Assembly: GCA_002840285.1 (NCBI GenBank)
Contig: PHAE01000007.1
Span: 1-64,000 of the forward strand
Reading direction: 5' to 3'
Origin: Firmicutes bacterium HGW-Firmicutes-11
GTDB lineage: Bacteria; Bacillota; Clostridia; Peptostreptococcales; Anaerovoracaceae
Length of the DNA stretch: 64,000 bases
Each line of letters starts with the position of its first letter. Position 1 is the first letter of the stretch. Below the pieces are notes generated by a model. The model saw nothing but the letters and a program-made list of their open reading frames with translations. It did not search any database and was not told the DNA's origin. Below are positions 30,283 to 63,659 of this stretch, piece by piece. The translations under genes were made by a program, and so were the position numbers.

Positions 30283-31746
30283 ATGGCATTCAACTACAGA
30301 TTGATTTTTCGCGTTACCGCTATGGTCATTTTGCTATTGGCCGTCGCCATGGTTCCGGCTATGTTCGTCAGCCTTCTTTATGGTGAGCGGGATACCGCTC
30401 TCGCATTTCTTGGCGCCATTCTTCCCACCGCCGTGGTTTCTTTGCCCTTCGTGATTTATCTGAAACCCTTAAAACCAACGATCCATATACGGGACGGGTT
30501 TCTTATCGTTTCCCTCTCCTGGATCATTGGATCGCTGTTCGGTGCATTGCCTTTCCTGATTTCCGGAGCGATCCCCGGTTTTGCTGATGCATTCTTTGAA
30601 AGTGCATCCGGCTTTACCACGACCGGTGCTTCTATACTTTCTGATGTGGAAGTTCTGCCTCGTGGCATTCTTTTTTGGAGATCCTTCACCCATTGGCTGG
30701 GAGGAATGGGCATCCTGATCTTTGCGATCGCTCTCTTTCCGTCCCTTAAACTGGGAAGTTTTTTGATTGCGAAAGCAGAGGCTCCCGGCCCCTCTCTGGA
30801 TAAACTTACACCAAAGCTCTCCGATTCTGCAAAACTGCTCTATTACGTTTACACGGGAATGACGATCGCAGAGGTGCTTCTTTTGATGCTTGGCGGACTC
30901 GACCTGTTCGATGCCATGATCCATACCTTTGGAACCGTTGCGACAGGAGGTTTTTCAAGTTACAATGCCAGCATCGCTCACTTTGACAGCCTCTATGTTG
31001 AGATGGTCGTTGTCGTGTTCATGATCCTGGCAGGAACCAATTTCAACCTGTATTTTCTCTTGCTTCGTAGAAATATGAAGGGTTTTCTCGCAGACAGGGA
31101 GTGGCGCACCTATATGGGAGTGATCGTTGCGTCCTTTGTTTCGATCACATTCCTTTTGAACCATTTTAAAATAGACGCAAGCATTGGAGAAAGCATGCGG
31201 CTTTCCATATTTCAGACGGTCACGATCCTTACTACCACGGGATTTGCTACTGCAGATTTTAGCTTTTGGCCAACCACCTGCCTGGTGATACTGCTTGTGT
31301 TGATGTTTATCGGCGGCTGCTCCGGCTCGACCAGCGGAGCAATGAAATCCATCCGGTTCCTCGTACTGTTCAAGTTGATCAAGCGAGGGATCAAGAAACG
31401 CCTCCATCCAAACGCTGTTGTGCCGATCAAACTCGCAGGAAAAAATGTAGCAAGCGATCGGGTCTCCAACATCGCCAGCTTTATTTTCACCTATTTGCTC
31501 TTGTTTGTACTTGGCGCTCTTGTCGTTTCCTTGGAAGGGACGGATCTGGTGACTGCGATCAGCGCGTCTGCCGCATGCCTCGGCAACATTGGCCCAGGTT
31601 TTGGCGAGGTTGGCCCCATGGTGAACTATGGCTTTTTATCCGCTCCCACAAAGCTCTTCCTTTCTATGATGATGATTGCAGGTCGATTGGAGCTTTTCAC
31701 GATTCTGCTTTTATTTACTCGCACGTTCTGGAATCCGGACCGGTAG
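30283..31746 (+). CDS. trkH: Trk potassium channel subunit TrkH (copy 1)
   Basis: A 487-residue polytopic protein with four pore-loop repeats. The selectivity loops read TTTGA (after residue 105), ATGGF, TTTGF and GNIGPG, each with the pore glycine. The motif APGPSLDKLTPKLSDSAKLLY lies between repeats. It imports potassium together with TrkA. The closest neighbour is its own paralogue 21 bp downstream. Confidence 0.95.
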   Translation: MAFNYRLIFRVTAMVILLLAVAMVPAMFVSLLYGERDTALAFLGAILPTAVVSLPFVIYLKPLKPTIHIRDGFLIVSLSWIIGSLFGALPFLISGAIPGFADAFFESASGFTTTGASILSDVEVLPRGILFWRSFTHWLGGMGILIFAIALFPSLKLGSFLIAKAEAPGPSLDKLTPKLSDSAKLLYYVYTGMTIAEVLLLMLGGLDLFDAMIHTFGTVATGGFSSYNASIAHFDSLYVEMVVVVFMILAGTNFNLYFLLLRRNMKGFLADREWRTYMGVIVASFVSITFLLNHFKIDASIGESMRLSIFQTVTILTTTGFATADFSFWPTTCLVILLVLMFIGGCSGSTSGAMKSIRFLVLFKLIKRGIKKRLHPNAVVPIKLAGKNVASDRVSNIASFIFTYLLLFVLGALVVSLEGTDLVTAISASAACLGNIGPGFGEVGPMVNYGFLSAPTKLFLSMMMIAGRLELFTILLLFTRTFWNPDR

Positions 31747-31767: not shown

Positions 31768-33231
31768 ATGCATTTGAATCATCGTATCGTACTTAATATC
31801 TTAGGAATCATATTGGCCATCTTGGGCTTATCTATGGTGCCATCGGCTATGATCTCGATTCTTTATCGAGAATACCGTGTTGCTGTTTCATTTTTTCTGA
31901 TCCTTGTACCGATGGTCGTGTTCGGATTGATCCTACACCGGGTCGTCAAACCAAAGTCTCCCAAATTAAAGGTTCGCGAGGGATTCGTGGTCGTTGGCGC
32001 CAGCTGGCTGATCGCTTCCTTCTTCGGCGCTCTTCCTTATCTGATGTCCGGCGTTTTACCCACCTTCATCGATGCATTCTTTGAATCCACTTCCTCTTTT
32101 ACTACGACCGGGTCTTCCATCATTCAAAACATCGAATTTTTACCTCGTGGTCTTGTTTTTTGGCGATCCTTCAGTCAATGGCTGGGCGGCATGGGGATAC
32201 TGGTTTTTGCTGTTTCACTGCTTCCCGCTTTAGGGATCAGTGGTCAGCAGATCGCAAATACTGAAACACCCGGGCCTTCCTTGAGTAAACTGAAGCCCAA
32301 GATGGCGGATTCGGCAAAATTGCTCTATGCCATTTATGGCGGACTCACTTTGTCAGCGATCGCATTGCTTCTTCTAGGTGGGTTAAGCCTGTTCGATTCC
32401 TGCATCGTTGCTTTCGGAAGCGTCGCTTCCGGGGGTTTGATCAATTACAGCGCAGGCGCAGCCCATTTTGACAGTGCCTACATCGAGTTCGTCATCACCT
32501 TATTTACAATTCTTGCCTGTACCAATTTTACGCTCTATTACAGTTTGGTTCGAGGGGAAATACGGCACTTTCTCAAAGATCGTGAGCTTCACACCTTTTT
32601 AGGTCTTCTCGGGATCGGCTTCCTACTGGTGTCTTTGAATTTATGGCTATCTGATACAACCACATCATTAGGAGAAGCTCTTCGCTTTGCCATGTTTCAC
32701 ACTGCAAGTTTTGCAACTACTACCGGCGTTTTTAGCGAAAATTACGATCTTTGGCCTTCCTTCAGCAAAATGATACTGTTCATACTGATGATGGTAGGAG
32801 CCTGTTCTGCATCTACCGGAGGCGGCATCAAGATCATTCGGGTCATGGTTCTCGTTAAGCTGATTTTACGCGGTTTCTTCATCCGGCTTCACCCGCGGGC
32901 TATCGTGCCGATCAAAATCCAAAATAAAGTAGTGACTTCAGACAGCATGGCAGGTATCATGTCATTTCTGTATCTTTATCTGTTAATCTATATCATCAGC
33001 GTTTTTGTGCTTTCGTTTGAAAACATGGATCTGGTCACGACCCTTAGCGCAACAGGAGCGATCCTGAACAACATAGGAGCCGGCTTCGGGTTGGTTGGAC
33101 CCGGCGGCTCCTTTGCTGTATTTTCTCCATTTTCTAAACTTTATATGAGTTTTCTGATGATCACAGGCAGATTGGAACTCTTCACGATCCTGCTGTTCTT
33201 CATGCCTTCCTTCTGGAATCCGGATCGCTGA
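31768..33231 (+). CDS. trkH: Trk potassium channel subunit TrkH (copy 2)
   Basis: The same length as copy 1 (487 residues) and clearly paralogous, yet diverged: pore loops TTTGS, ASGGL, TTTGV and NNIGAG. All four pore glycines are kept, so it should still conduct potassium, but loops 2 and 4 differ next to the glycine and could change affinity or selectivity. Its stop codon abuts the stop of the convergent aldehyde oxidoreductase gene with no gap, so no dedicated terminator is visible. Confidence 0.94.
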   Translation: MHLNHRIVLNILGIILAILGLSMVPSAMISILYREYRVAVSFFLILVPMVVFGLILHRVVKPKSPKLKVREGFVVVGASWLIASFFGALPYLMSGVLPTFIDAFFESTSSFTTTGSSIIQNIEFLPRGLVFWRSFSQWLGGMGILVFAVSLLPALGISGQQIANTETPGPSLSKLKPKMADSAKLLYAIYGGLTLSAIALLLLGGLSLFDSCIVAFGSVASGGLINYSAGAAHFDSAYIEFVITLFTILACTNFTLYYSLVRGEIRHFLKDRELHTFLGLLGIGFLLVSLNLWLSDTTTSLGEALRFAMFHTASFATTTGVFSENYDLWPSFSKMILFILMMVGACSASTGGGIKIIRVMVLVKLILRGFFIRLHPRAIVPIKIQNKVVTSDSMAGIMSFLYLYLLIYIISVFVLSFENMDLVTTLSATGAILNNIGAGFGLVGPGGSFAVFSPFSKLYMSFLMITGRLELFTILLFFMPSFWNPDR

Positions 33232-35115
33232 TCAAAGGATCCAATCCAGTCCCAGTCGTTTTTTGGTTTTCTCGGTAGGGATTCCCGTCTTCGGATCCCA
33301 ACCCGCAAGCATATAATAGTCATCCAAAGCGGCTTCAAATGCTTCTTTTGTGATCCCGACTCCGGCGTTGGGTCCATCGGGTATGGGCAGGAACATCCGG
33401 TCAGGAAGAACATCATGTTCCCTTCCAAAGCCTTCTCTGGCATTATAAAGACGCATCATGTTGATCCGACGCTCGCCGATCTCCTGAAGTTCGGCAATTG
33501 AAGTCTCCCAACCGGTCCCGAATCTGCAAAACCGAATAAGGTCGTCTGGTCCGTATAACTGCCACGCAGGACCCCAGACGAACTGGCAAAGACATAGACT
33601 GTCCATCATGGAATAGTACTTTTGGGTCTCCAGTGCAAATTTGGCTTTGTTCTTGTCAAGAACCCCGTAATGCTCGACTTTTTCAAAATCTGCCAGTTGA
33701 TTGGACCAGATCCAGTCGTTGCTGTCTTCTGGTGCCATCAATGCCGGGTCATGCTCGGAAGACTGGTGGTCAGCGCCAAAGTTGTTCACCGCATAATTGA
33801 TTGCCAGGTTCGGCTTCATCTGGACCATGTGCGCCGGAATCTCCTGTCGTTTGCACGCCATGACAAAGTTCAGCGCCTCTCCTCCAATGAGTTCCGCAGC
33901 TCTGGCGCTGCCCTGTGCCAGAAGCTCTCCGATTCCTTTTTCCTTATAAGCGATTTTCTTGATCAATGGAGCAAAGGCCTTGCCATTTCCAAATGTCAGC
34001 GAAATCCCATCGGTATCTTTTAATGTGAGCAATTCCTTTTCAAAGCATTCCATGGCAAACGCGATGGTAGCACCACAGGATATGGTGTCGAGTCCGTACA
34101 TATTGCAGAGCTGGTTTGCTTCACAGATATCCGCTAGGTCCGCATTGCCGCAATAGGAACCAAAGGTGGAGATCGTCTCGTACTCCGGCCCTCCATATTC
34201 AGGATCTGCTTTCCCAGGGATATCCACTACCCCTTTGCAGCGGATCGCGCAGCCGAAACAGGTGTCTCTCTTCGCCAGCACTGTGCTGGTCAAAGTGGTG
34301 CCACGGATCTGATCCATGCCTTCCATGGTTCCCCTCGTCCAATTATAACTGGGGAGAAATCCTTCATCAGCGTGAAAATCAACAACTCCGGCTGTTCCGT
34401 TCAATGCAGTATCTACGATAGCAGCATTCGCTTCCATGCGTTCCTTGACATTCCCGGTAAGAACTTTTAAGCCCTCCGGATCTGCCGGGCGTACCGGCGA
34501 CTGGCGTTTTACAACAAGAGCTTTTAGATTTTTGGATCCCATCACTGCTCCTACACCATTTCGACCGTTTGCACGGCTTCGCATGTGAATGATGGAAGAG
34601 TAAGGCACACCCAGTTCGCCGGCGGGTCCAATGATCGAAGATTCCACCTTGCTGTCACCCAAATCATTTTGGATCCATGCTTCTGCTTCTCCAGTTATCT
34701 TCCCCCAGACAGGAGTGGCATCTTTGATCTGCACATTTTCCTTGTCGATGTAAAGATATACCGGGCGTTCTGATCTTCCGTGGAAAACGACGGAATCATA
34801 ACCGTTCGCTTTTAGATGCGCCGGTATAAAACCTCCGACTTGCGAATCTCCAGCGGTCCCAGTCAGGGGGCTTTTCGTCGTGACCGTCATTCGGCTCTGT
34901 CCACTGATCGGAATTCCCGTCAAGGGAGATACGGAAAAGATCAACTGGTTTTGCGGGGACATGGGGTCTGCTCCAGGAGCTCCATCCTGAAGCAAAAGAT
35001 ACATTCCCAGCGCCGACCCTCCCGGATAATATCGGTAGATGTCTGCCGGAAGAACTTCGACTGTATGTGTTTCATTCGTGAGATCCACGTGCAGAATTTT
35101 TGCATCACTTATCAT
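33232..35115 (-). CDS. tungsten-type aldehyde:ferredoxin oxidoreductase
   Basis: A 627-residue AOR-family enzyme that interconverts aldehydes and carboxylic acids with ferredoxin. The N-terminal domain has YPGGSALGMYLL and SGQSRMTVTTKSPLTG, the cofactor-binding start. The iron-sulfur ligands appear as CFGCAIRC in the middle and a cysteine pair CLC near residue 505. Being a true AOR rather than a related family member (formaldehyde or other substrates) is likely but not certain. It overlaps the unknown gene upstream by 4 nt and ends the sigma-54 operon that also encodes an alcohol dehydrogenase and an amino-acid permease. Confidence 0.9.
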   Translation of the reverse strand: MISDAKILHVDLTNETHTVEVLPADIYRYYPGGSALGMYLLLQDGAPGADPMSPQNQLIFSVSPLTGIPISGQSRMTVTTKSPLTGTAGDSQVGGFIPAHLKANGYDSVVFHGRSERPVYLYIDKENVQIKDATPVWGKITGEAEAWIQNDLGDSKVESSIIGPAGELGVPYSSIIHMRSRANGRNGVGAVMGSKNLKALVVKRQSPVRPADPEGLKVLTGNVKERMEANAAIVDTALNGTAGVVDFHADEGFLPSYNWTRGTMEGMDQIRGTTLTSTVLAKRDTCFGCAIRCKGVVDIPGKADPEYGGPEYETISTFGSYCGNADLADICEANQLCNMYGLDTISCGATIAFAMECFEKELLTLKDTDGISLTFGNGKAFAPLIKKIAYKEKGIGELLAQGSARAAELIGGEALNFVMACKRQEIPAHMVQMKPNLAINYAVNNFGADHQSSEHDPALMAPEDSNDWIWSNQLADFEKVEHYGVLDKNKAKFALETQKYYSMMDSLCLCQFVWGPAWQLYGPDDLIRFCRFGTGWETSIAELQEIGERRINMMRLYNAREGFGREHDVLPDRMFLPIPDGPNAGVGITKEAFEAALDDYYMLAGWDPKTGIPTEKTKKRLGLDWIL

Positions 35116-35786
35116 GAAATCACCTTCCTGTTTACTACAGCATCCGCTACTAACTCAAAAAATTCCAGCATTTTCACGCATTCTTCCGGTTTTAGTTTGA
35201 TCAAATGCATTACCGGCGGGATCAGGATCCACGTTGTCGATCCGACCAGCGTGCGGTTGCTTATGGCCCAGCTTTTCTTCGCCGGTTGGTAGACGACTTC
35301 CACATGGGTCATGTCAAGACTTACGATCCGGTCAATGATGAGTTTGTTGTTCAACAATTTCAAGTACTCGTCCAGTTCTTCTTCACTGCACTGGCTTCCT
35401 CCGTCGAGCCATACCGCATCTGTGATCCCCAGCTTTCCGATATTTTTTACGATGAATCTGCAATAATTGGTTTCCGGAAGACCAGGCATGGAATCGATCA
35501 CTGTTTTATGGTACAGATTATAAGCAAATGACCAGAAGCGATTTTCATAGGTATAGCCAATATTCAAATGCTTTAAATAATGAAAACCCTCACAATACAA
35601 TGTCTTGTTATGAAGTTCCGAGGTGCGGCGCTTAAGCCGTTCCCCCATTGCCATTCCGTAAAGGTCTGCAACATAATCGAGCTTTCTGTCTGCTCTTCGG
35701 TTCAATATGTGTCTTGGGATCTGCTTTTCTTTCACCCACTGATTGCCGATTCTCTCGTCGTCTCTTTTCCCTGGAAGAAGACCCAT
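35112..35786 (-). CDS. unknown protein in the aldehyde oxidoreductase operon
   Basis: About 224 residues if it starts at the ATG at 35786, which has AAAGGGG seven bases upstream. Starting at 35903 would overlap the permease gene. I do not recognise the family. It is soluble and mixed alpha/beta, with scattered tryptophans and cysteines (NYCRF and GGSQCSEEELDEYLKLL). The second half contains VEVVYQPAKKSWAISNRTLVG. The 4-nt overlap with the AOR gene suggests a coupled product, perhaps an accessory or a catabolic enzyme, but that is inference from position only. Confidence 0.7.
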   Translation of the reverse strand: MGLLPGKRDDERIGNQWVKEKQIPRHILNRRADRKLDYVADLYGMAMGERLKRRTSELHNKTLYCEGFHYLKHLNIGYTYENRFWSFAYNLYHKTVIDSMPGLPETNYCRFIVKNIGKLGITDAVWLDGGSQCSEEELDEYLKLLNNKLIIDRIVSLDMTHVEVVYQPAKKSWAISNRTLVGSTTWILIPPVMHLIKLKPEECVKMLEFFELVADAVVNRKVIS

Positions 35787-35814
35787 TTGCATGCCCCTTT
35801 CACTTTGTAGAAAT

Positions 35815-35842
35815 CCGGAGGCGATCGATCGAACGCCTCCGG
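35815..35842 (-). promoter_or_regulatory. hairpin between permease and unknown gene
   Basis: CCGGAGGCG (35815-35823) and CGCCTCCGG (35834-35842) form a perfect 9-bp GC-rich stem with a 10-base loop. Only ATTTCT follows on the minus strand, so termination would be partial at best; it could reduce expression of the two distal genes or protect the upstream mRNA. Confidence 0.6.
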
Positions 35843-35874
35843 CACATAACAACAGTCGATAGTTTGATCCGTTT

Positions 35875-37311
35875 TTATTTTCTGCTTTCCAGCCATTTTT
35901 CAACGGCTTCGTCCCAGACTGCCAGATATTCGGATCGATCCCTGATATCCATCACCAAGGCTTCCAGCGGAACGATATTGTTGATCGGCAATTTATGCAT
36001 CACGTTCCAGACGACGGCATATATTGCAACGATCACCATCATGATGAGGGCATAAAGAAATACATAAGACAAGGTATAGATCGCATACAATGCTCCTAGT
36101 ATCCCAATTGGCAAAGTGATCCAAGCAGCTGGAGTTTTCCATAGTCTTGGGAAGTCGGGATACTTTTTGCGAAGAACCAATACGTCTACCATCGCTATGA
36201 TATAAGCGATCAACCAGGTGATACAAGCGGTGTTGATAAAAATCAAGATCAGTTCAGATGTCCCTCCATTAAGAGAAATATACACCGTTGTGATCAAGAT
36301 CAAGAATACGGTAAAAGCGATTCCGTACATCGGAACTCTGTATTTTGGATGGATTCTTGCAAATATAGCTGGCACAAGGCTTTCTCTGGCCATACCGTAC
36401 AACATTCTGGGAAGCGCTGAAATATAAGCATTGCCTGTGGTAAAAGATGCGGCAATCGTCAATCCTCCCATTACGATCCCGCCCCAGAAGCCCAACGTGG
36501 CTGTTGCCGCGTCGACGTGGGGAACCGAGGATGACGCCATCAAACCTAGATCGGTATACTTTACGGCGCCGGCGACGAAAATGATATCGACGATATAAAT
36601 CGTGATCAGTCCAAATATCAAGCCATAGGGTATGTTCTTATATGGTTTTTTGTTTTCTTCTGCCATTGGACAAGCAAATTCAAAACCGATAAAGAACCAA
36701 ATGGCAGTACCGACTGCTCCGAACACCGTGTTCCATCCTCCCTCCGGAAGCAACCCTGCATTTTCCGGAACGACTGTAGCAACACCCAAAGTTTCGCCAA
36801 CACCAGCGGTTCCCATGATCGCCAGGATGAAGAAAACGACCATCATGATGATCGTCACCGTCGCTTCCGATCGCCCATAAAATTCGACACCTGTTACGTT
36901 TACCAGGATAATGATCAGAAGCAGCACCAAGGATACCGCCAATTGGGGCACTCCGACCATCTGTTCCATCGCGAGGCCACCCATAACCAGTTGGGTTCCA
37001 CCGTCTGCGGCTATCAGGACAACATAACCGCTTAACAACGCGAATGTGGCCCAAAACCTTCCTAACGCCGGCGCGGTGTAATCTGAGATCATACCGCCTC
37101 CCGGGATCATAGCTGTCAATTCACCAAAGGCGAAGGCCGTCGCCATCATCGGTATGAGTGCGATCGCTGCGCTGATAAAGGTAGCGTTCCCGGATATGGC
37201 TCCGACATTGCCTACCGAGAACATCGCTGTTCCGGATACGACCAGTCCCACGGCTGCTCCGTAAGAGGAAGGAAATCCAAGAACACGTTTTAGTTTCGTA
37301 TGCTGACTCAT
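35875..37311 (-). CDS. APC-superfamily amino acid permease
   Basis: A 478-residue protein with about twelve transmembrane segments. It begins with the family-typical GAAVGLVVSGTAMFSVGNVGA and has FIGFEFACPMAEENKKPYKNIP, the conserved loop after helix 6. Substrate is not predictable; amino acids or amines are usual. GGAGGTAAAAC precedes the ATG, and it lies 30 bp after the alcohol dehydrogenase, within the same sigma-54 operon. Confidence 0.9.
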   Translation of the reverse strand: MSQHTKLKRVLGFPSSYGAAVGLVVSGTAMFSVGNVGAISGNATFISAAIALIPMMATAFAFGELTAMIPGGGMISDYTAPALGRFWATFALLSGYVVLIAADGGTQLVMGGLAMEQMVGVPQLAVSLVLLLIIILVNVTGVEFYGRSEATVTIIMMVVFFILAIMGTAGVGETLGVATVVPENAGLLPEGGWNTVFGAVGTAIWFFIGFEFACPMAEENKKPYKNIPYGLIFGLITIYIVDIIFVAGAVKYTDLGLMASSSVPHVDAATATLGFWGGIVMGGLTIAASFTTGNAYISALPRMLYGMARESLVPAIFARIHPKYRVPMYGIAFTVFLILITTVYISLNGGTSELILIFINTACITWLIAYIIAMVDVLVLRKKYPDFPRLWKTPAAWITLPIGILGALYAIYTLSYVFLYALIMMVIVAIYAVVWNVMHKLPINNIVPLEALVMDIRDRSEYLAVWDEAVEKWLESRK

Positions 37312-37341
37312 GTTTTACCTCCTTCAAGAATAATGCGGGCT

Positions 37342-38502
37342 CTAAATAGTATAAGCTTTTTTAAATAGTTCGAGATAATCTTTTGCTGTGATCGGTCTTG
37401 GATTGCTTGGAGTTGAAACGTTTCGTTCGGAAGCCTCGGACAGCGCCTGGAAATCTGCAGGATCGATTTCGGGTATATCTTTCATCTTGGGGATCCCTAC
37501 ATCCTCACAGAGCCGTTGCAGTCCATAAACCGCTTCCATAGCCGCGTCTTCCGTCGACATACCGGCTATGTTCAAACCCATAGCCCTGGCGACGTTTGCA
37601 TGCTTCTCAAAATCCGATGACAGATTGAATTCGGTCACCGTTGGCAACAGGATCGCATTGGCGACGCCATGAGCCAGATCATACCTTCCCCCGAGCGCTT
37701 CCGCCATACAATGGACAGCGGCGACATCCGCATAGCCAAAGGCAATGCCGGCAATCGTACTTCCAAGCATCATTCCTCTGCACGACTCTAGATCCGGTGC
37801 TGTCACTGCTTTTCTAAGATTTCGTTCGATCAGATCGATCGCGTACAATGCGTATGCATCCGTGTGAGGATTTGCGACATTGCAGGTGTATGCTTCCACT
37901 GCGTGAGTCATTGCATCGATCCCGGTGGAGGCCATGATGTGAGATGGTAGTTTCAGCAGAGTCGTTGGATCGACCAGCGCCACCTTGGCTGCTGCTTTTG
38001 GATCAAAAACATTGAGTTTGATGTGTTGTTCTGAGTCGGTGACAACGGCAAAGGGCGTCACTTCGCTTCCGGTACCGGCAGTCGTTGGAATGGCTATCAG
38101 TGGAGTGATTTCCCGTTCCAATAGCTGAAACCCGCACCAATCTTTGATGTTTCCTCCATGGGTCAGCAACACGCCGATCGCTTTTGCAGTGTCCATGGAA
38201 CTTCCGCCGCCGACGGCGACCAGAAAATCGACTTGTTCCTGCTTCGCTAATTCATAACCGCTGTGACAATCCTTGTCTCTCGGATTGGGAACGATGCTGT
38301 CGAAGACAACGAAGGGAATGTCGCTCTCCTTCAAACTTTTCTCCACTGCTTGCGTCAAACCGGCTTTTATGACACCTTTGTCTGCAACCAGCATCACCTT
38401 CCCGGCTCCCATCAATCGTGCTTCTTTCCCGACGTTTTGGACCACTCCTTCTCCAAATTCGATCCTAGTTGGCAATGCAAACGAATACGTAGCCAAAGTC
38501 AT
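37342..38502 (-). CDS. iron-containing alcohol dehydrogenase
   Basis: A 386-residue group III dehydrogenase. The NAD-binding GGGSSMDTAKAIG is at about 98-110, and the metal site has GIDAMTHAVEAYT and AVHCMAEALGGRYDLAHG with the conserved Asp and His ligands. It reduces aldehydes to alcohols or the reverse. It is the first gene after the sigma-54 promoter at 38581-38597, and GAAAGGAGAG precedes the ATG. Confidence 0.93.
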   Translation of the reverse strand: MTLATYSFALPTRIEFGEGVVQNVGKEARLMGAGKVMLVADKGVIKAGLTQAVEKSLKESDIPFVVFDSIVPNPRDKDCHSGYELAKQEQVDFLVAVGGGSSMDTAKAIGVLLTHGGNIKDWCGFQLLEREITPLIAIPTTAGTGSEVTPFAVVTDSEQHIKLNVFDPKAAAKVALVDPTTLLKLPSHIMASTGIDAMTHAVEAYTCNVANPHTDAYALYAIDLIERNLRKAVTAPDLESCRGMMLGSTIAGIAFGYADVAAVHCMAEALGGRYDLAHGVANAILLPTVTEFNLSSDFEKHANVARAMGLNIAGMSTEDAAMEAVYGLQRLCEDVGIPKMKDIPEIDPADFQALSEASERNVSTPSNPRPITAKDYLELFKKAYTI

Positions 38503-38580
38503 ATCTTTCTCTCCTTTCTTCCTTAATTACAATTATGATCGACAGTTTGACCGATCAAATCATCATACCCATTTTACATA

Positions 38581-38597
38581 AGCAAAGATTATGCCAA
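38581..38597 (-). promoter_or_regulatory. sigma-54 (-24/-12) promoter
   Basis: On the minus strand the bases read TTGGCATAATCTTTGCT: GG at -24 (TTGGCAT) and GC at -12 (TTGCT) with canonical spacing. The predicted start lies near 38569, about 65 bases before the alcohol dehydrogenase ATG. The sigma factor (rpoN, 51606-53012) and an activator (40168-42150) are both in this window. Confidence 0.88.
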
Positions 38598-38655
38598 GCA
38601 GCTAAATGTTGCAATTTGGGGCTTCGATAGGGAATTAACAAAATGACAAAAAAAT

Positions 38656-38707
38656 AAATGTTCATTTTTGAAACACTCCAAATCAAATGCGTCAAAATTG
38701 AACATTT
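38656..38707. promoter_or_regulatory. putative upstream activator sites
   Basis: Two copies of the sequence TGTTCAwTTTTGAmrCA lie in inverted orientation: TGTTCATTTTTGAAACA at 38659-38675 (plus) and TGTTCAATTTTGACGCA at 38688-38704 (minus), 14 of 17 bases equal. Their outer edges form AAATGTTCA/TGAACATTT. They lie about 70-110 bp upstream of the sigma-54 promoter, the normal place for an enhancer-binding protein, with centres 29 bp apart (close to three helical turns). Confidence 0.65.
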
Positions 38708-38763
38708 TGCTATGTCTGCTGGATTTAAATGGGATAATCTCCGTGTTTTTATGTATTAAAATA

Positions 38764-40143
38764 TCACACGCTTGGCCGGATCAGTGTTCCACTGTGTGAA
38801 TTGTCTGTCATTTTTCCCTTTTCAACTGCAACCTTGCCATTTATCAGCACAAAATCGATCCCGACCGGTGGTGCGTCCGGTTGTCCTCGCCCGATGAAAT
38901 CCGCCTTGTCTAAAATTTCTTCATACCGAAACAGTACCAGATCTGCGTTCTTTCCTTCTTCGATCGAGCCAATATCATCCAAGCTAAGACGCCTCGCAGG
39001 AAGGATCGTTATTTTTCGGATCGCATCCATCAAAGACAATTCTTTTCGATCTCTGACGTAGCGTCCGATCAGGCGGGGAAACGTGCCTGACACTTCCGGC
39101 GCTCCCATCCCTGGATAATGTGGACCGTCAGCGGCATTGGTCGATACGTAAACGTAGTCCTTCTGAAGCGCCATTGTGATCGCATCAGAATCACATACAA
39201 ATGCGGTAACGAGTGTTCCCGGGGATTTCTTTCGGAGCTGCTCAAACATTTCTTGCGTACAGTGTTCTCCCACATGTATGCCGGACGCAATCAGAAGATC
39301 CTTAACGGATGCGCCGTTATACTCTTTTTCCCATCCCGGATCGAAGATATTCGTCCCGATACAAGCGGAGTAAGCGTCATAGACCCCACTGTCTGCCGTG
39401 ATGTCCAAACCGTGCTTTCTGGCTTTTTCTATGATCTTCAACGCCGGGCTCATCGCCCCTCCGATGCCTACCATATACATCAACTGTAGTATCTGAACTT
39501 TTACACCGGTGGCTTCTGCGACTCTTAAAATCTCGTCAAAAAACTGCAGGGCCTCTCTTCCATCCTTCCGAAGATGTATCGTGATCGGTCGTTCGTATTC
39601 CTTTGCCACTTTGGCCATTGAAAGAATCTCGTCATAAGATGTTCCCGGTACAAATTCCAGTCCGAAGCAGATCCCAAAAGCTCCATATTCAAGAAAACTC
39701 CTCGCCAAATCACTCATCACCATGATTTCTTTTTCCGATGCCGGTCGGTGCATGTCCGTGATCCCGACTGCATTGCGCAGCGTAAATGACTGGGATACAA
39801 AGAATCCCTGATTGACGATAAAACCTTCCTCTTCGATGGTTTTGATCGTTTTGCTGTTGATGTTGCGTTCTCCACCCAAGGTAGTCGTTCCGCCTTGACG
39901 AATCAGACACTCTGCCGAGTAGGGATTCCCATCCACATGAGAATGAAAATCCAGAAATCCGGGCGATACCATAAGTCCCGTAGCGTCGATTTCTTTTGAC
40001 CCGCGCAGCGGTACATCGGCGATCCTGGCTATCTTGTCGCCGTTGATGCCAATGCATTTTTTTGTGATCTCCTCGCCAATAACATCGATCACAGTTCCAT
40101 GGTTGATCACAAGATCAAACAATTGATCTTCCTTTTGCATCAT
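38764..40143 (-). CDS. amidohydrolase, D-aminoacylase-like
   Basis: A 459-residue metal-dependent amidohydrolase. The N-terminal composite-barrel part leads to PGFLDFHSHVDG, the metal-binding HxH, then a TIM barrel with TIHLRKDG and a conserved C-terminal LSLDDIGSIEEGKNADLVLF. The closest match I can name is N-acyl-D-amino-acid deacylase/D-aminoacylase; dihydropyrimidinase-type activity is an alternative. It lies 24 bp downstream of the sigma-54 activator and ends 167 bp before the sigma-54 promoter, so it is probably co-transcribed with the activator, not with the dehydrogenase operon. Confidence 0.85.
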   Translation of the reverse strand: MMQKEDQLFDLVINHGTVIDVIGEEITKKCIGINGDKIARIADVPLRGSKEIDATGLMVSPGFLDFHSHVDGNPYSAECLIRQGGTTTLGGERNINSKTIKTIEEEGFIVNQGFFVSQSFTLRNAVGITDMHRPASEKEIMVMSDLARSFLEYGAFGICFGLEFVPGTSYDEILSMAKVAKEYERPITIHLRKDGREALQFFDEILRVAEATGVKVQILQLMYMVGIGGAMSPALKIIEKARKHGLDITADSGVYDAYSACIGTNIFDPGWEKEYNGASVKDLLIASGIHVGEHCTQEMFEQLRKKSPGTLVTAFVCDSDAITMALQKDYVYVSTNAADGPHYPGMGAPEVSGTFPRLIGRYVRDRKELSLMDAIRKITILPARRLSLDDIGSIEEGKNADLVLFRYEEILDKADFIGRGQPDAPPVGIDFVLINGKVAVEKGKMTDNSHSGTLIRPSV

Positions 40144-40167
40144 AGAGACCTCATGTGTTTTTCTGCT

Positions 40168-42150
40168 TTATCGCTTCAATGCCCTGTATACGGTAGCCCT
40201 GCTGATTTTCAGCAGGTCGGCTGTTTTTTTGATGTTTCCATCACAGCTTGACAGTGCCATCTTGATGTAGTTATCCGTTACTGTATCCAACGGCTCAAGA
40301 CCACCAGAGAAGGGAATGCTGGGAATCGGCTCACTTGCAGCAGCGCGAATCTCGAGTGGGATCAGTTTCACTGTCAGAATCTCTTTCTCCGCCATCAGCA
40401 TCATCCGTTCGACCACATTATTCAGTTGTCTGACGTTTCCCGGCCAATCGTAAGACATCAATACCGACATTGCTTCATCGTCGATGCCCTTGACTTTGTT
40501 TTGAAATTGATTTTTATTTCTCTGGATCATGTGGTTCACCAGTGTTACAATGTCGCTCTTTCGATCCCGCAGCGCAGGCAACTTTATATATACCGTATTC
40601 AATCGATAAAAGAGATCTTCCCGGAAATTGCCGTTCTCTACTTCGTGGTTCAAATCACGGTTTGTGGCTGCAATGATCTGGACATCGACAGGAATCGGAA
40701 GATATCCGCCAATGCGAAATATTTTGTTTTCCTGCAAGACCCGAAGCAGCTTGGATTGCATATCGATGGGTAAATTGATGATTTCATCCAGGAAAAGTGT
40801 TCCCCCATGCGCAATTTCAAACTTGCCCCTGTGTCCCCCTTTTCTTGCGCCGGTGTATGCTCCCTCCTCGTATCCGAAGAGCTCGCTTTCTAGCAGTTCT
40901 CTCGGGATCGCTCCGCAGTCGACGGCAACGAAGGGGCTCTTTTTCCGGCTGCCGCAGTTATGTATCGCCTGGGCGAACATTTCCTTGCCGGTGCCGCTCT
41001 CTCCTTCGATAATGATACGAACGTTGTGTTCTGCCGCTTTTTGCGCGATCTCGATCGCATTGAGCAGCTCAGCAGATTTTCCTATGATATCATTGAAGGT
41101 GAAGAATGCCCGGTTTTCTTGATTCATCTTATCTGCCAGTTCCTGGATCTCTTCATAGCGGATAAAGAATAAAACCCGACTGCTTTCATTGGTGTGTTGG
41201 TTGACGATAAACTGATAGCTCACCACACAGTTATAGCTTTTCCGTTTTCCGACTATTTTTGCCTTTCCGATACTCTCCCCTCGCAACGCCGCCGAGATGA
41301 TCCCATTGATTTTCGGATTGGTCTGGATCAGATTGATGTTTTTTCCAATCATATCTTCCCGGTTCAAACCGGTCATCTTTGCCATTTCCTGATTGACCTG
41401 TGTTATCATGTTGCTTTCATCGACATAAATGATACCGTCAGTGACCGCATCCAAAATGTTCTTCTGATCTTCGTTTTGTCGAATCAGTTGCAGATGTGTC
41501 TCTTGAAGAAGAAACTCGTTCTCGATCGCCTTCGCTGTTGCTGTGATCATTCCCAGCATATAACGATTCGATTTCTCAAGTGGTACGGTCATGCCCACCG
41601 CCGCGACGATCTCACCGTCCTTGTTTAGGATCGGCGCTGCGTAGACCGCCTGCTTCTGCAAGATCTCACAGTAATGTTCCGCACCGACGACACCGATAGG
41701 CTTTCTGTGTCGAATCGCCAGATCGTATCCATTGGTTCCAATATTCGATTCTTCGAGTTTGCAGCCGATGCGACAATTTAGGTCCATTTCCAGAAGCATG
41801 CTTCCCTTGTTGATATTGTTCAATATCATACCATAACGATCCACGACCTGGACGCTGATATCTGTCTCATCGACGATGTCGATCATCATCTCCATGATCG
41901 GTGTTGAAATATTCAAAAGCTCTGTATTTTCACGGATCCTTCGCAACACTTCTGCCGGTTCGATGTCTTGCTCTGGCAGTTGGCCCTGCAACGCATCCAC
42001 TTTTGCCGCCTTACACCGTATCCATGATTCAACGATTTCGTCAGGTATAGTATTCTCAATCAATATATCGTTCTTAATAAAGTTCACCCAGACATGCTCA
42101 TAATGCATGAATTCCGGGTTCTCTAAATAATAAAACGGATTGAAGCGCAT
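40168..42150 (-). CDS. sigma-54-dependent transcriptional activator
   Basis: A 660-residue enhancer-binding protein. It has a GAF-like N-terminal sensor (about 60-205), a PAS domain (about 230-330) with NILDAVTDGIIYVDE, and a central AAA+ domain (about 350-590). The AAA+ domain has Walker A GESGTGKE (383-390), the sigma-54-contacting loop GAYTGA (430-435) and Walker B GTLFLDEI. A Fis-type helix-turn-helix (about 625-660) with NIKKTADLLKISRATVYRAL ends it. No receiver domain is present, so it should sense a small ligand. AAGGAGG precedes the ATG by seven bases. It most likely binds 38656-38707 and drives the adjacent operon. Confidence 0.95.
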   Translation of the reverse strand: MRFNPFYYLENPEFMHYEHVWVNFIKNDILIENTIPDEIVESWIRCKAAKVDALQGQLPEQDIEPAEVLRRIRENTELLNISTPIMEMMIDIVDETDISVQVVDRYGMILNNINKGSMLLEMDLNCRIGCKLEESNIGTNGYDLAIRHRKPIGVVGAEHYCEILQKQAVYAAPILNKDGEIVAAVGMTVPLEKSNRYMLGMITATAKAIENEFLLQETHLQLIRQNEDQKNILDAVTDGIIYVDESNMITQVNQEMAKMTGLNREDMIGKNINLIQTNPKINGIISAALRGESIGKAKIVGKRKSYNCVVSYQFIVNQHTNESSRVLFFIRYEEIQELADKMNQENRAFFTFNDIIGKSAELLNAIEIAQKAAEHNVRIIIEGESGTGKEMFAQAIHNCGSRKKSPFVAVDCGAIPRELLESELFGYEEGAYTGARKGGHRGKFEIAHGGTLFLDEIINLPIDMQSKLLRVLQENKIFRIGGYLPIPVDVQIIAATNRDLNHEVENGNFREDLFYRLNTVYIKLPALRDRKSDIVTLVNHMIQRNKNQFQNKVKGIDDEAMSVLMSYDWPGNVRQLNNVVERMMLMAEKEILTVKLIPLEIRAAASEPIPSIPFSGGLEPLDTVTDNYIKMALSSCDGNIKKTADLLKISRATVYRALKR

Positions 42151-56814: not shown

Positions 56815-57192
56815 CTATCTGGCTGCGATCGCTTCGATTTCTACGCCGACTCCTTTCGGGAGATCGCGGACGGCAAAACAGGATCTTGCCGGATAGTCCT
56901 TTTGAAAAAAGCTCTGGTACACTTCATTCACTGCTCCGAAATCACCGATATCCGCCAGTAATATCGTGACTTTCACCACATCCTCCATGGTAAACCCACC
57001 GGCTTCGACGATGGCCTTCACGTTTTTCATGGACCGCTCTGCCTGATCAACGATATCTCCGGTCACCAATTCTCCGGTTTCCGGATCGATCGGAATCTGC
57101 CCCGCTGTATACAAAGTCCCACCAACGAGGATGCCCTGGGAATACGCTCCGACAGCTGCCGGGGCTTTTTCTGTCTTAATGACCTGTTTCAT
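56815..57192 (-). CDS. ridA: RidA-family reactive intermediate deaminase
   Basis: A 125-residue member of the YjgF/YER057c/UK114 family. It removes reactive enamine/imine products of PLP enzymes. The hallmark GAYSQGILVGGTLYTAGQIP and the arginine in PARSCFAVRDLPKG are present. It lies 18 bp after the nth-aroD fusion gene, apparently in the same transcript. Confidence 0.95.
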   Translation of the reverse strand: MKQVIKTEKAPAAVGAYSQGILVGGTLYTAGQIPIDPETGELVTGDIVDQAERSMKNVKAIVEAGGFTMEDVVKVTILLADIGDFGAVNEVYQSFFQKDYPARSCFAVRDLPKGVGVEIEAIAAR

Positions 57193-57210: not shown

Positions 57211-58623
57211 CTATAAAGAAAGTATTGATAACGCATTACGCAATTGCTCGATCCGGATCTGCCCTGGAGCGGATGGATCGTTGCCTGCCGCAAAGGTGAC
57301 GCAAGATCCAAACTGACCGCCGGCGATGCGGCTCAGCCGTCCTTTGTCACCCATCGAGATGGTGATCAACGGCGGCATTCCGTGTTTTTTCCAAATGCGT
57401 TCTGATGCTGCAAGCAGACGAAGCACATCGTCGTCCTCCACCGCCATGACCGCAAGTTTGGGCAAATCGGCCCCATAAGTCAACATGTGTTCGAGGATCG
57501 CTTCCATTTTTCTTTGCGATGGCGTTCCGGTCAATCGATGGCTGGACAAAACGCTGATGATCCCATTGGATGCGCTCTCTTGTAGGAGTATCCGGATCCT
57601 CTCTTCTGCACAACTATATTCGACATCCACCAGATCGACCAATTTCGATCGGATCACGGAGCTGACCAGATCCATGTAGTCTGATTCCGAAAGACTGCCT
57701 TCGCCTCCTTCTCTCTTGCTTCGGTAGGTAAAAAGCAACGGGGTCTGCTGCATTTTTCCCCGCAGGTCTTTGAGAATTCGAAGAAGTTCAAGAGGCTCTT
57801 TTGAAAAACACAGATCCGCCCTCCACTCAACCAGGTCCGGAGTTGCTGCTTTTACGGCTTCGACTTCCTTCCATAGCTCCATTTCTGTAGTGGCAACGAG
57901 AGGAATGCAGATCTTGACTGTTCCGCTCCCAAGCTTGAGGTCTCCGATTTCTATCGCTTTTGTTGTTGTGTTCTTCGTGTTCATCGGCTCCAACCCGTTC
58001 CTTCTGCACCAAGGCAATAAAACGCAGTTCTGGCACTTTGGGTTTCTGGCACTGCAAATACTTCGTCCGTGCAAAATCAAAGAGTGATGCATCATGATCC
58101 AGTCGGCGACAGGAATAGCAGTCATCAGAGCTTCTTCGGTTTTGGTGACATCGGATTCTTCTGTCAGACCGATCCGATTGGACAGTCGGAACACGTGGGT
58201 ATCGACTGCGATCCGTGGTACTCCGAAGCCGACAGCCAAAACCACATTGGCAGTTTTCCGGCCAACGCCGGGCAGCGAAAGCAATGTTTCATACTGCTCC
58301 GGGACCTGACCGCCGAACTTTTTGGAGAGAATGCTGCTCAATTCGATGATGTTCTTTGCCTTCGTCCGATACATACCGATGCGGCGTAGAATTCCCTCGA
58401 CCTCGACGGGATCCGCTTCTGCCAATGCTGTAGCATCGGGAAACCGAGAGAACAGAATCGGCGTGATCTGGTTGACGCTCTTGTCCGTAGTCTGGGCGGA
58501 AAGAACCACCGACACCAGCAGCTGGAACGGATCTTGGAATTCCAATGCACAGTCAGCATCCGGATACGCCCGTCGCAGTACTTCAATGATCGATCGTATT
58601 TCGCTGGTTTTGACCTTTGCCAT
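57211..58623 (-). CDS. endonuclease III / 3-dehydroquinate dehydratase fusion
   Basis: One open frame of 470 residues with two complete enzymes. Residues 1-210 are endonuclease III (Nth): helix-hairpin-helix LPGVGRKTANV (117-127) with catalytic Lys123, Asp141 in VDTH, and a [4Fe-4S] set C190, C197, C200, C206 with the correct spacing. Residues from about 214 are type I dehydroquinate dehydratase (AroD): EWRAD (266-270), RSKREGG with Glu305, His362, Lys389, Arg432 and the SAPGQ end (451-455), all catalytic positions kept. No stop separates them. An ATG at codon 214 with GGAG only three bases before it could also allow separate AroD. The start at 58623 has AAGGAG upstream. Confidence 0.92.
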   Translation of the reverse strand: MAKVKTSEIRSIIEVLRRAYPDADCALEFQDPFQLLVSVVLSAQTTDKSVNQITPILFSRFPDATALAEADPVEVEGILRRIGMYRTKAKNIIELSSILSKKFGGQVPEQYETLLSLPGVGRKTANVVLAVGFGVPRIAVDTHVFRLSNRIGLTEESDVTKTEEALMTAIPVADWIMMHHSLILHGRSICSARNPKCQNCVLLPWCRRNGLEPMNTKNTTTKAIEIGDLKLGSGTVKICIPLVATTEMELWKEVEAVKAATPDLVEWRADLCFSKEPLELLRILKDLRGKMQQTPLLFTYRSKREGGEGSLSESDYMDLVSSVIRSKLVDLVDVEYSCAEERIRILLQESASNGIISVLSSHRLTGTPSQRKMEAILEHMLTYGADLPKLAVMAVEDDDVLRLLAASERIWKKHGMPPLITISMGDKGRLSRIAGGQFGSCVTFAAGNDPSAPGQIRIEQLRNALSILSL

Positions 58624-58699: not shown

Positions 58700-58713
58700 T
58701 GACCCACGGGTCA
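58700..58713. promoter_or_regulatory. palindromic operator 1
   Basis: TGACCCACGGGTCA, palindromic except for the central CA. It lies between the nth-aroD promoter and the efflux promoter, upstream of both -35 boxes. It matches operator 2 in 13 of 14 bases, a spacing and symmetry typical of TetR-family sites. Confidence 0.8.
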
Positions 58714-58765: not shown

Positions 58766-58779
58766 TGACCCGCGGGTCA
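58766..58779. promoter_or_regulatory. palindromic operator 2
   Basis: TGACCCGCGGGTCA, a perfect 14-bp palindrome, beginning about ten bases after the expected transcription start. Binding here would block elongation or open-complex clearance. It is the best candidate site for the TetR protein encoded at 63027-63659. Confidence 0.85.
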
Positions 58780-62800: not shown

Positions 62801-63040
62801 GGCATGATTCCCCTCTCTTTAGGATTCAGCGATGGAGGAGAGATGATGTCGCCTCTGGGTGTTTCCATCATCGGCGGACTTTTAGGCTCGACTGCCGTAA
62901 CTCTGCTTCTCGTGCCGGTCCTGTATGCTATCGCTGATGACTCCAGGAACAAACGGATCGAGAAAAAACGTCGCCGGGAAGCAGAGATCCATCAGCTGAT
63001 CGAGAAATGGAACGAGGAGGGATCTCATGGTCATGCTTAA
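59882..63040 (+). CDS. RND efflux transporter permease
   Basis: A 1052-residue AcrB/SwrC-type proton-driven pump with two six-helix halves and two large extracellular loops. The proton-relay helix has GMLVDNSIVALENI, with one Asp kept where classical AcrB has two. The second half repeats GIVVNNSILIIEFI. GGAGG lies five bases before the ATG. It follows the adaptor by 13 bp and overlaps tetR by 14 nt. Probable roles are export of drugs, surfactants or lipophilic metabolites. Confidence 0.94.
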   Translation: MNISKISINRPVTTIMLVFVILLVGTVSLLGLPMDLLPEIELPMAIVIVDYPNAAPEEVETMVTKPMEQALASVENMDSITSMTTEGRAIVMVEFTMKTDMDFATLDMREKIAMIQGFLPASATDPMVLKMSMDFTPVVAVYVSGDKPLAELNREVEDSILSYFERSAGVASVDLFGGVTEEIAINFNQETLSGYGLSLSTVSQLLAAENVNMPGGDVSKGTTKVIVRTLGEFRSIDEIMQMPIPLADRSVIRLSELATIERGYQEQTSISRVDGVTAIGISVSKQSTANTVDVSDGIAKTLDTLRERYPDLTFTVGFDQADYIKGSVTSVAQSALIGALLAILVIFFFLRSMSSTMIIAISIPTSFFATFALMNLTGMTLNLITLSSLTLAVGMLVDNSIVALENIYRVSREEGGRSSKEAALIGSKQIALAVSASTLTSVVVYLPIALSGGIASVLFADFCWTFIISLMVSLLVAISVVPMLSSQLLDRTASPDYLRIGKHHYRYRFVPYFTKFIQWLTDAYVELLRKTLIHRKKAVIICLVIFLVSSALVGVVGMEFMPAADEAAFSVNVSTPYGTSLEEKDRFMMQVEDYILTLPELEHCSVDIGQAGFSGMGGGADATMSVTLVPKQDRKRTIWEIMDATKKEFEGFVGAEVTLVETASVNALLGGSDISLSIRGPELPVLREVGEDLAAALLQIPGVKETSTSIQEGNPEVRVILDRNTASFYGVNAYQLATGLENSLNGTTATRLKIDGDEIQVNLSLTDAYGASIDNMKQILIPTITGGSVPVGQIATLEFGNSPTRIDRINQERYLTVDVAIEGDDLAAVSNLVFALVDEYPFPAEYSYVEGGLYDQMIEAFGDLLLALVVAILLVYMVLASQFESLTQPFIVMIAIPFAMSGSFIALFLTGKTLSITSFLGLIMLVGIVVNNSILIIEFIRQNKDTMDRDQALVQAGKTRLRPILMTTLTTCVGMIPLSLGFSDGGEMMSPLGVSIIGGLLGSTAVTLLLVPVLYAIADDSRNKRIEKKRRREAEIHQLIEKWNEEGSHGHA

Positions 63041-63659
63041 AGAAGCCAAACAGGATAAAAGGGATCTGATTCTAGCAACTGCGCTTCAACTGTTCATCGA
63101 CCGAGGCTACCTGGAGACGAAGGTCATCGACATTGCCATCGCGGCAGGGATCGCCAAGGGATCAGTCTATGCCTATTTCCCCAGCAAAGAGGCTTTGTTT
63201 GTAGAACTCCTGAAAGAATACGTCGTTGTCCCATATGCCGAATTCAAGGATAGTTCTGAACGAACCGATGCGACTTGCAGCGATAAATTACGTCAATTCG
63301 TACAATTTGAACAGAAAGTTGCTCTTCGTTTTGGCAATGGAAAAAACTTCATCGATCTGCTCTATGCTGAAAAAGGTCTTTCCCGCCAGCCTGAGCTCGA
63401 ATCGGTGATGCGGCAGTTGATGCAACTGCGATTTACCCTTGTCTATGGCATCGTTGACACAGGCATCCGCAAGGACGAGTTTTCCGGTAAAGATCCTCAC
63501 CTCCTCACCCTGTCGCTCATGGGTTCCATCGCCATGTATATCAGCCACCAGTGTGGCCTGTTGTCGCATGCTGCGGAATATGTCCCTGCCGGTTCTCGAT
63601 CTGGGGACATGGCAGAAGACGTATTTTTCGAGTTCCTCTTTCATGGGTTACGTCGTTAG
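63027..63659 (+). CDS. TetR-family repressor of the efflux operon
   Basis: A 210-residue regulator. The N-terminal TetR helix-turn-helix (about 10-57) reads LILATALQLFIDRGYLETKVIDIA and IAKGSVYAYFPSKEALFVEL across positions 15-60, and a helical ligand-binding domain follows. GGAGG lies six bases before the ATG, and the start overlaps the pump gene. Being the last gene of the operon controlled by the paired palindromes, it should repress its own synthesis until a pump substrate binds. Confidence 0.92.
   Translation: MVMLKEAKQDKRDLILATALQLFIDRGYLETKVIDIAIAAGIAKGSVYAYFPSKEALFVELLKEYVVVPYAEFKDSSERTDATCSDKLRQFVQFEQKVALRFGNGKNFIDLLYAEKGLSRQPELESVMRQLMQLRFTLVYGIVDTGIRKDEFSGKDPHLLTLSLMGSIAMYISHQCGLLSHAAEYVPAGSRSGDMAEDVFFEFLFHGLRR

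Follow-up and report, generated by a model that had tools for sequence, protein, structure and literature searches.

Fusions of shikimate pathway enzymes

Type I 3-dehydroquinate dehydratase (AroD) forms one half of the AroD-AroE bifunctional enzymes of plants (PDB 2gpt) and of some archaea and bacteria (PMC11237513). In those enzymes AroD is N-terminal and its partner is the next enzyme of the pathway, whereas in the protein described here AroD is C-terminal and follows endonuclease III (Nth). With a DNA glycosylase as its N-terminal partner, this protein falls outside the class of bifunctional shikimate fusions (of the AroDE, AroKB or AroKE kind). The endonuclease III of PDB 1orn, which we take to be from Geobacillus stearothermophilus, aligns by sequence with the Nth half (residues 7-211 of the fused protein against 8-212 of a 226-residue chain), but it has no second enzyme at its C-terminus. 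No report of an Nth-AroD fusion was found in open-licence PubMed Central papers.

Other fusions occur in the family of G000, the source genome of the analyzed window (the whole 64-kb stretch of DNA). In genomes G022, G025 (cut by a contig end) and G119, AroD and shikimate kinase (AroK) lie in one frame, as confirmed by Pfam, and a shikimate-kinase-like stretch behind AroD was seen by eye in G052, G089, G1273, G1272, G056, G021 and G102. The confirmed cases resemble Nth-AroD in placing a type I dehydroquinase in frame with another enzyme; they differ in that the partner is C-terminal and belongs to the same pathway as AroD. At another locus (L109, on contig C62 of G041), the frame that carries the AroD match (996-1793, with one TAA counted inside) is about 600 aa long, and on visual inspection its C-terminal part resembles the ATPase of an ABC transporter.

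The source genome itself encodes an AroK-AroE fusion on contig C12, where open reading frames for aroA, aroC and DAHP synthase were also recognized. Matches to this fusion that are full-length (from residue 1 or 2 to at least 425, without a stop) were found in 10 of the 139 family genomes sampled, G000 included; this count omits three shorter matches (to 327-335) in long frames, and one further genome has a TGA inside the match. The AroK-AroE fusion therefore appears to be recurrent or old. Like Nth-AroD, it joins two enzymes in frame by a short junction, but its partners share a pathway and it occurs in those 10 genomes. In G022, G025 and G119, where AroK is fused to AroD, AroE matches stand alone; the fusion partner of AroK thus seems to differ from lineage to lineage. 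In-frame joining of neighbors is common in this family, mostly within one pathway, and it is by its partner that Nth-AroD stands out.

Structure of the fused gene and its product

The minus-strand frame runs without a stop from ATG 58623 to the stop codon at 57213-57211 and encodes 470 aa, in agreement with the first-pass annotation, which had described a single open frame holding both enzymes (Table 1). The mechanical ORF opens farther upstream, at GTG 58707. ATG 58623 is the likelier start, since AAGGAG lies four bases 5′ of it and the aligned position is ATG in G022, G007 and L051 and TTG in G025 (G031 was left out of this comparison, a contig end cutting its nth).

Table 1. Coordinates of the nth-aroD locus in the window and of fused shikimate genes in the source genome and its family.
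Feature	Position	Strand	Remarks
Nth-AroD fused ORF	57211..58623	-	470 aa; Pfam and NCBIfam; AAGGAG before ATG 58623
Endonuclease III domain	57985..58623	-	residues 1-213; HhH motif; Fe-S cysteines 190, 197, 200, 206
Type I 3-dehydroquinate dehydratase (AroD) part	57214..57984	-	residues 214-470; PF01487, TIGR01093
Junction/linker after fourth Fe-S cysteine	57952..58002	-	about residues 208-224; ACA/AAC-rich run
Candidate internal start ATG (M214)	57982..57984	-	anti-Shine-Dalgarno duplex -8.0 kcal/mol
Candidate internal start TTG (L211)	57991..57993	-	AAGGA five bases upstream; duplex -7.7 kcal/mol
ridA (Ribonuc_L-PSP)	56815..57192	-	PF01042; 18 bases downstream of fused gene
AroD-AroK fusions	L070 1504-2805; L026 3-1184; L078 892-2229		Pfam
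AroK-AroE fusion	L097 1474-2826 (G000 contig C12)		451 aa; NCBIfam matches for both halves

Pfam placed HhH-GPD at residues 37-170, together with HHH, in the first half of the protein, and DHquinase_I (PF01487) at residues 239-465, covering profile positions 1-230 of 230. The NCBIfam models nth (TIGR01083; 253.9 bits, cut-off 211.7) and aroD (TIGR01093; 194.6 bits, cut-off 139.3) both scored above their cut-offs and assign the two halves to these families; no combined Nth-AroD model was among the 13 NCBIfam families listed for the protein. The C. difficile AroD of PDB 3js3 covers residues 218-468 by sequence. The Nth half contains LPGVGRK (117-123), VDTH (140-143) and CSARNPKCQNCVLLPWC (190-206), the last conforming to the Fe-S loop pattern C-X6-C-X2-C-X5-C; we take these to be the HhH motif with the catalytic Lys, the motif of the catalytic-site Asp and the iron-sulfur loop, respectively. 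In the AroD half we located EWRAD (266-270), FTYR (298-301), REGG (304-307), SSHR (360-363), LPKLAV (387-392), SRIAGG (431-436) and SAPGQ (451-455), which presumably provide the Schiff-base Lys, the His and the substrate-binding Arg and Glu residues. Judged by these profiles and motifs, both enzyme domains are complete in the one frame, as had been claimed.

An AlphaFold2 model of the fused protein had a mean pLDDT of 89.8 and a pTM of 0.56, the latter a value to be expected if the two domains have no fixed orientation to each other. Its input was a 24-row alignment (A2), in which a TAA of row L003 was read as Q. An alternative alignment (A1; P0001 and 64 fragments) was discarded, AroD fragments having been placed on the Nth part at 20-27% identity. 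In Foldseek comparisons with the PDB, the AroD half matched 3js3 (TM 0.94) and 1qfe (0.96, both by target length) and thus has the type I fold. The Nth half matched 1orn with a TM of 0.64 and an rmsd of 5.4, and is therefore the weaker part of the model. The only stretch of at least three residues with pLDDT below 50 comprises residues 215-220, roughly where the first-pass annotation had put the linker (207-216). The predicted picture is of two folded domains on a short, flexible and probably disordered link.

The junction and possible internal starts

Junction length was counted in nucleotides between the codon for the fourth Fe-S cysteine (Cys206) and the conserved I/V codon in the first strand of AroD. 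It is 57 nt in G000, 42 in G031, 41 in G007 and L051, and 53 in G025 and G022; the junction of the fusion is thus the longest of the six compared, exceeding that of G031 by 15 nt. The two coding sequences are in the same frame in G000 and G031 and in different frames in the other four. The ACA/AAC-rich run of the G000 junction encodes NTKNTTTK, and Asn, Thr and Lys abound in the linker. Measured from the conserved strand, M214 lies seven codons farther upstream than the ATG of G031, which weakens it as the ancestral AroD start. Taken with the longer junction, this position indicates that the event involved more than one base change.

The suggestion that an internal ATG might give free AroD is borne out as far as the codon is concerned: M214 is an in-frame ATG, and the TTG at L211 is a second candidate. 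The anti-Shine-Dalgarno duplex of the nth start, computed like the others against an assumed 16S tail, has an energy of -7.9 kcal/mol, against -8.0 at M214. M214 is matched or exceeded in strength by only 15% of the window's 488 internal ATGs. Among 53 presumptive gene starts in the window, 64% are stronger than M214 and 36% as weak or weaker, the best pairing within the first 60 codons having been taken for each, which flatters those starts. The GGAG at M214 leaves three bases to the ATG. Production of free AroD from M214 or L211 is possible on these signals.

Genomic context

The source genome is a 1.93-Mb draft in 75 contigs, estimated as 95.85% complete. Searched with the full-length query, it yielded the fused gene and one other match, on contig C38, with 26% identity to residues 31-206, which appears MutY-like by reading of the match. 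A type II dehydroquinase (AroQ) was not found in the source genome, while 7 of 14 control genomes were positive. With a single Nth-type and a single type I AroD match and no AroQ, the cell seems to have no endonuclease III and no dehydroquinase other than those of the fused gene, as judged from this 96%-complete draft.

The ridA gene behind nth-aroD probably belongs to the same operon. The opposite strand beyond it carries genes for a SEC-C protein and for homoserine dehydrogenase. Upstream, and divergent from nth-aroD, there is an RND efflux operon with a gene for a TetR-type regulator at its far end. Two palindromes, TGACCCACGGGTCA (58700-58713) and TGACCCGCGGGTCA (58766-58779), are located 66 bases apart between nth-aroD and the RND operon; 0.22 matches are expected by chance at one mismatch, and the TGACCCGCGGGTCA palindrome recurs upstream of nth in L023 (at 2222). 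These palindromes are putative operators of the TetR-type regulator (63027-63656) and might also act on nth-aroD.

Elsewhere in the window, two tandem 487-aa frames (30283-31743 and 31768-33228) have similar N-termini and are probably duplicated; we presume that they encode potassium-uptake (TrkH-like) subunits. At 33235-42150 the gene for a sigma-54 activator is followed on its own strand by genes for an amidohydrolase, an iron-containing alcohol dehydrogenase, an amino acid permease and an aldehyde ferredoxin oxidoreductase, the whole possibly being one catabolic unit.

Distribution of fused and separate nth and aroD genes

Searches with the full-length query gave an uninterrupted match to both halves in G000 alone among 148 family genomes. 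Among the matches listed for 393 genomes of the order (E <= 1e-60), G000 alone was fused, and the same was true of 391 genomes of the class and 398 of the phylum at E <= 1e-83, a threshold that may miss distant fusions with weaker scores; the four samples overlap. The nearest arrangement was that of G031, in which the match is interrupted by one TAA. A query with the AroD half detected AroD in 107 of 349 family genomes, in 12 of which, G000 included, it lies in an open frame of at least 400 aa. In the other 11 the extra length is C-terminal of AroD or is a short stretch without an Nth match, and six of these long frames, inspected at the locus, contain no Nth. A scan of named genomes, which may have left out the record nearest the window, yielded 30 loci, and its three long matches (L032, L034 and L051) all represent separate genes. 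The search for the same domain order in related genomes, which the first-pass annotation had proposed as a check, thus brought no second Nth-AroD frame in any sample, the 349 family genomes of the AroD query included. In the samples searched the fusion is not seen to recur in a second lineage, and on them a widespread fusion was rejected.

Separate nth and aroD genes stand side by side in five genomes of four other genera: G031, G022 (loci L005/L032/L070), G007 (L007/L034), G025 (L026) and G093 (L051/L073), G007 and G093 being of one genus (g8). Their order and orientation are the same as in the fusion, but stops are kept between them. An ATGA overlap joins the two genes in G007, L051 and G025; in G031 they share a frame, interrupted by one TAA, and in G022 they are parted by a short gap with several stops. 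According to a reading of the ORF ends, a ridA-like gene follows aroD in G031, G007 and L051 and aroD-aroK in G022 (the contig of G025 ends inside its aroD-aroK frame). By the same reading, genes for SEC-C and/or homoserine dehydrogenase are found on the far side in G022, G007 and G093/L051, with other genes after ridA in G031, and RND-type genes lie upstream in G022, G007 and L051 and, after one more frame, in G025. In G031 the contig ends within nth, and the upstream side falls beyond it.

In relatives the separate genes overlap or lie almost end to end, so that shared expression of nth and aroD probably preceded the fusion. PMC10666635 reports that in unidirectional gene pairs overlaps of 4 and 1 nt are far more frequent than any other spacing; on that account the starting state of nth-aroD is ordinary. 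It is the Nth-AroD pairing that is unusual, while the mechanism is ordinary.

Six of the 32 distinct AroD sequences in the fetched loci, G000 included, are nth-adjacent, a count that covers these loci and is to be set against the 107 AroD-bearing family genomes. In the AroD tree a single branch separates the six rows from all others (92/94; recovered in 90% of 200 bootstrap trees). This tree carries long-branch warnings (the end branch of G000 measures 5.23) and joins long branches, and it was not used to place G000 next to G031. In the Nth tree (56 rows) four changes of the adjacency label are required inside a group of 19 rows, and the group of 18 rows to which G000 belongs (95/77, not starred) excludes G031. 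On these trees adjacency is clustered, and its history is not simple, given the four changes needed. AroD of the fused protein shares 36-41% identity with the other nth-adjacent sequences, which share 38-54% among themselves.

Origin of the fusion

As far as one assembly shows, the fusion is real and confined to a single uncultured clostridial lineage. We consider it probable that an ancestral tandem nth-aroD lost the nth stop by chance, yielding one two-domain product in this lineage. The ancestral state would have been an nth-aroD-ridA block beside the divergent RND efflux operon, and with the loss of the stop codon the two cistrons would be read as one; a small insertion or repeat expansion combined with stop loss is a plausible route. 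The product would be a polypeptide of about 52 kDa (estimated from its length), in which each domain folds and works independently, tethered by the flexible linker, and which would serve as the only endonuclease III and dehydroquinase of the cell. The joining itself would be near-neutral, and some free AroD may perhaps arise from M214 or L211. The first-pass annotation had weighed accidental gene joining against a tie into one expression unit. The joining of neighbors is supported by the separate adjacent genes of relatives, which lie in a largely conserved block, and by the lack of the fusion in every other genome examined; an expression link probably predates the fusion. No sign emerged that DNA repair and the shikimate pathway are functionally linked.

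The open frame might instead result from an assembly or sequencing error, the true state being an ATGA overlap obscured by bases miscounted toward the end of nth. The sequence ATGAAC at M214 does hold TGA in the frame shifted by one, like the ATGA overlaps of G007, L051 and G025, and the frame rests on one draft assembly. However, no homopolymer at the junction is longer than four bases, and G031 shows that nth and aroD can occur in the same frame in this family. Moreover, the long open frames of the window (53 in number, each of at least 150 codons from stop to stop and overlapping by less than 30%) total 61.5 kb of its 64 kb, and the sequence does not have the appearance of an assembly riddled with frameshifts. 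An error of this kind is very improbable, and a hidden frameshift in the Nth-AroD frame is unlikely. Another reading accepts the frame but supposes that the cell contains mainly separate enzymes, either because translation of AroD begins internally, at M214 or L211, or because the exposed linker is cleaved. It is favored by the pairing at M214, which is close to that of the nth start and which few internal ATGs match, by the AAGGA before L211 and by the low model confidence of the linker. We regard it as unlikely, since the spacing at M214 is only three bases, most presumptive starts in the window are stronger, and ribosomes starting at nth must still make the full-length product.

Selection for the joined state is very improbable. 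It would require that dimeric AroD makes Nth bivalent, or that the amounts of the two enzymes are tied, to the benefit of the cell. The dimeric state of type I dehydroquinases speaks for it, as do the motifs, which both domains retain, and the Asn/Thr/Lys-rich linker, which exceeds the junctions of five relatives; yet no second fused lineage was found in the samples searched, Nth and AroD share no pathway, and an unfused version in an overlapping operon could work equally well. Decidedly doubtful, too, is a combination in which one frame gives two products, a bivalent Nth-AroD held together by dimerizing AroD and free AroD from an internal start. If true, the only endonuclease III would be carried by a metabolic enzyme and made in fixed proportion to it, which would be a novel type of physical connection joining base-excision repair to aromatic biosynthesis.

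A stop codon lost between two adjacent genes, the origin that we favor, makes Nth-AroD a clear case of operon neighbors fused without a shared pathway, and a warning against Rosetta-stone inference of function when one genome alone shows a fusion. The pairing is known from one draft genome. In this organism two functionally unrelated housekeeping enzymes, apparently the sole copy of each, have been joined, and related genera may show the intermediate stages: separate genes overlapping by ATGA, and a pair in one frame with a single stop left between them.
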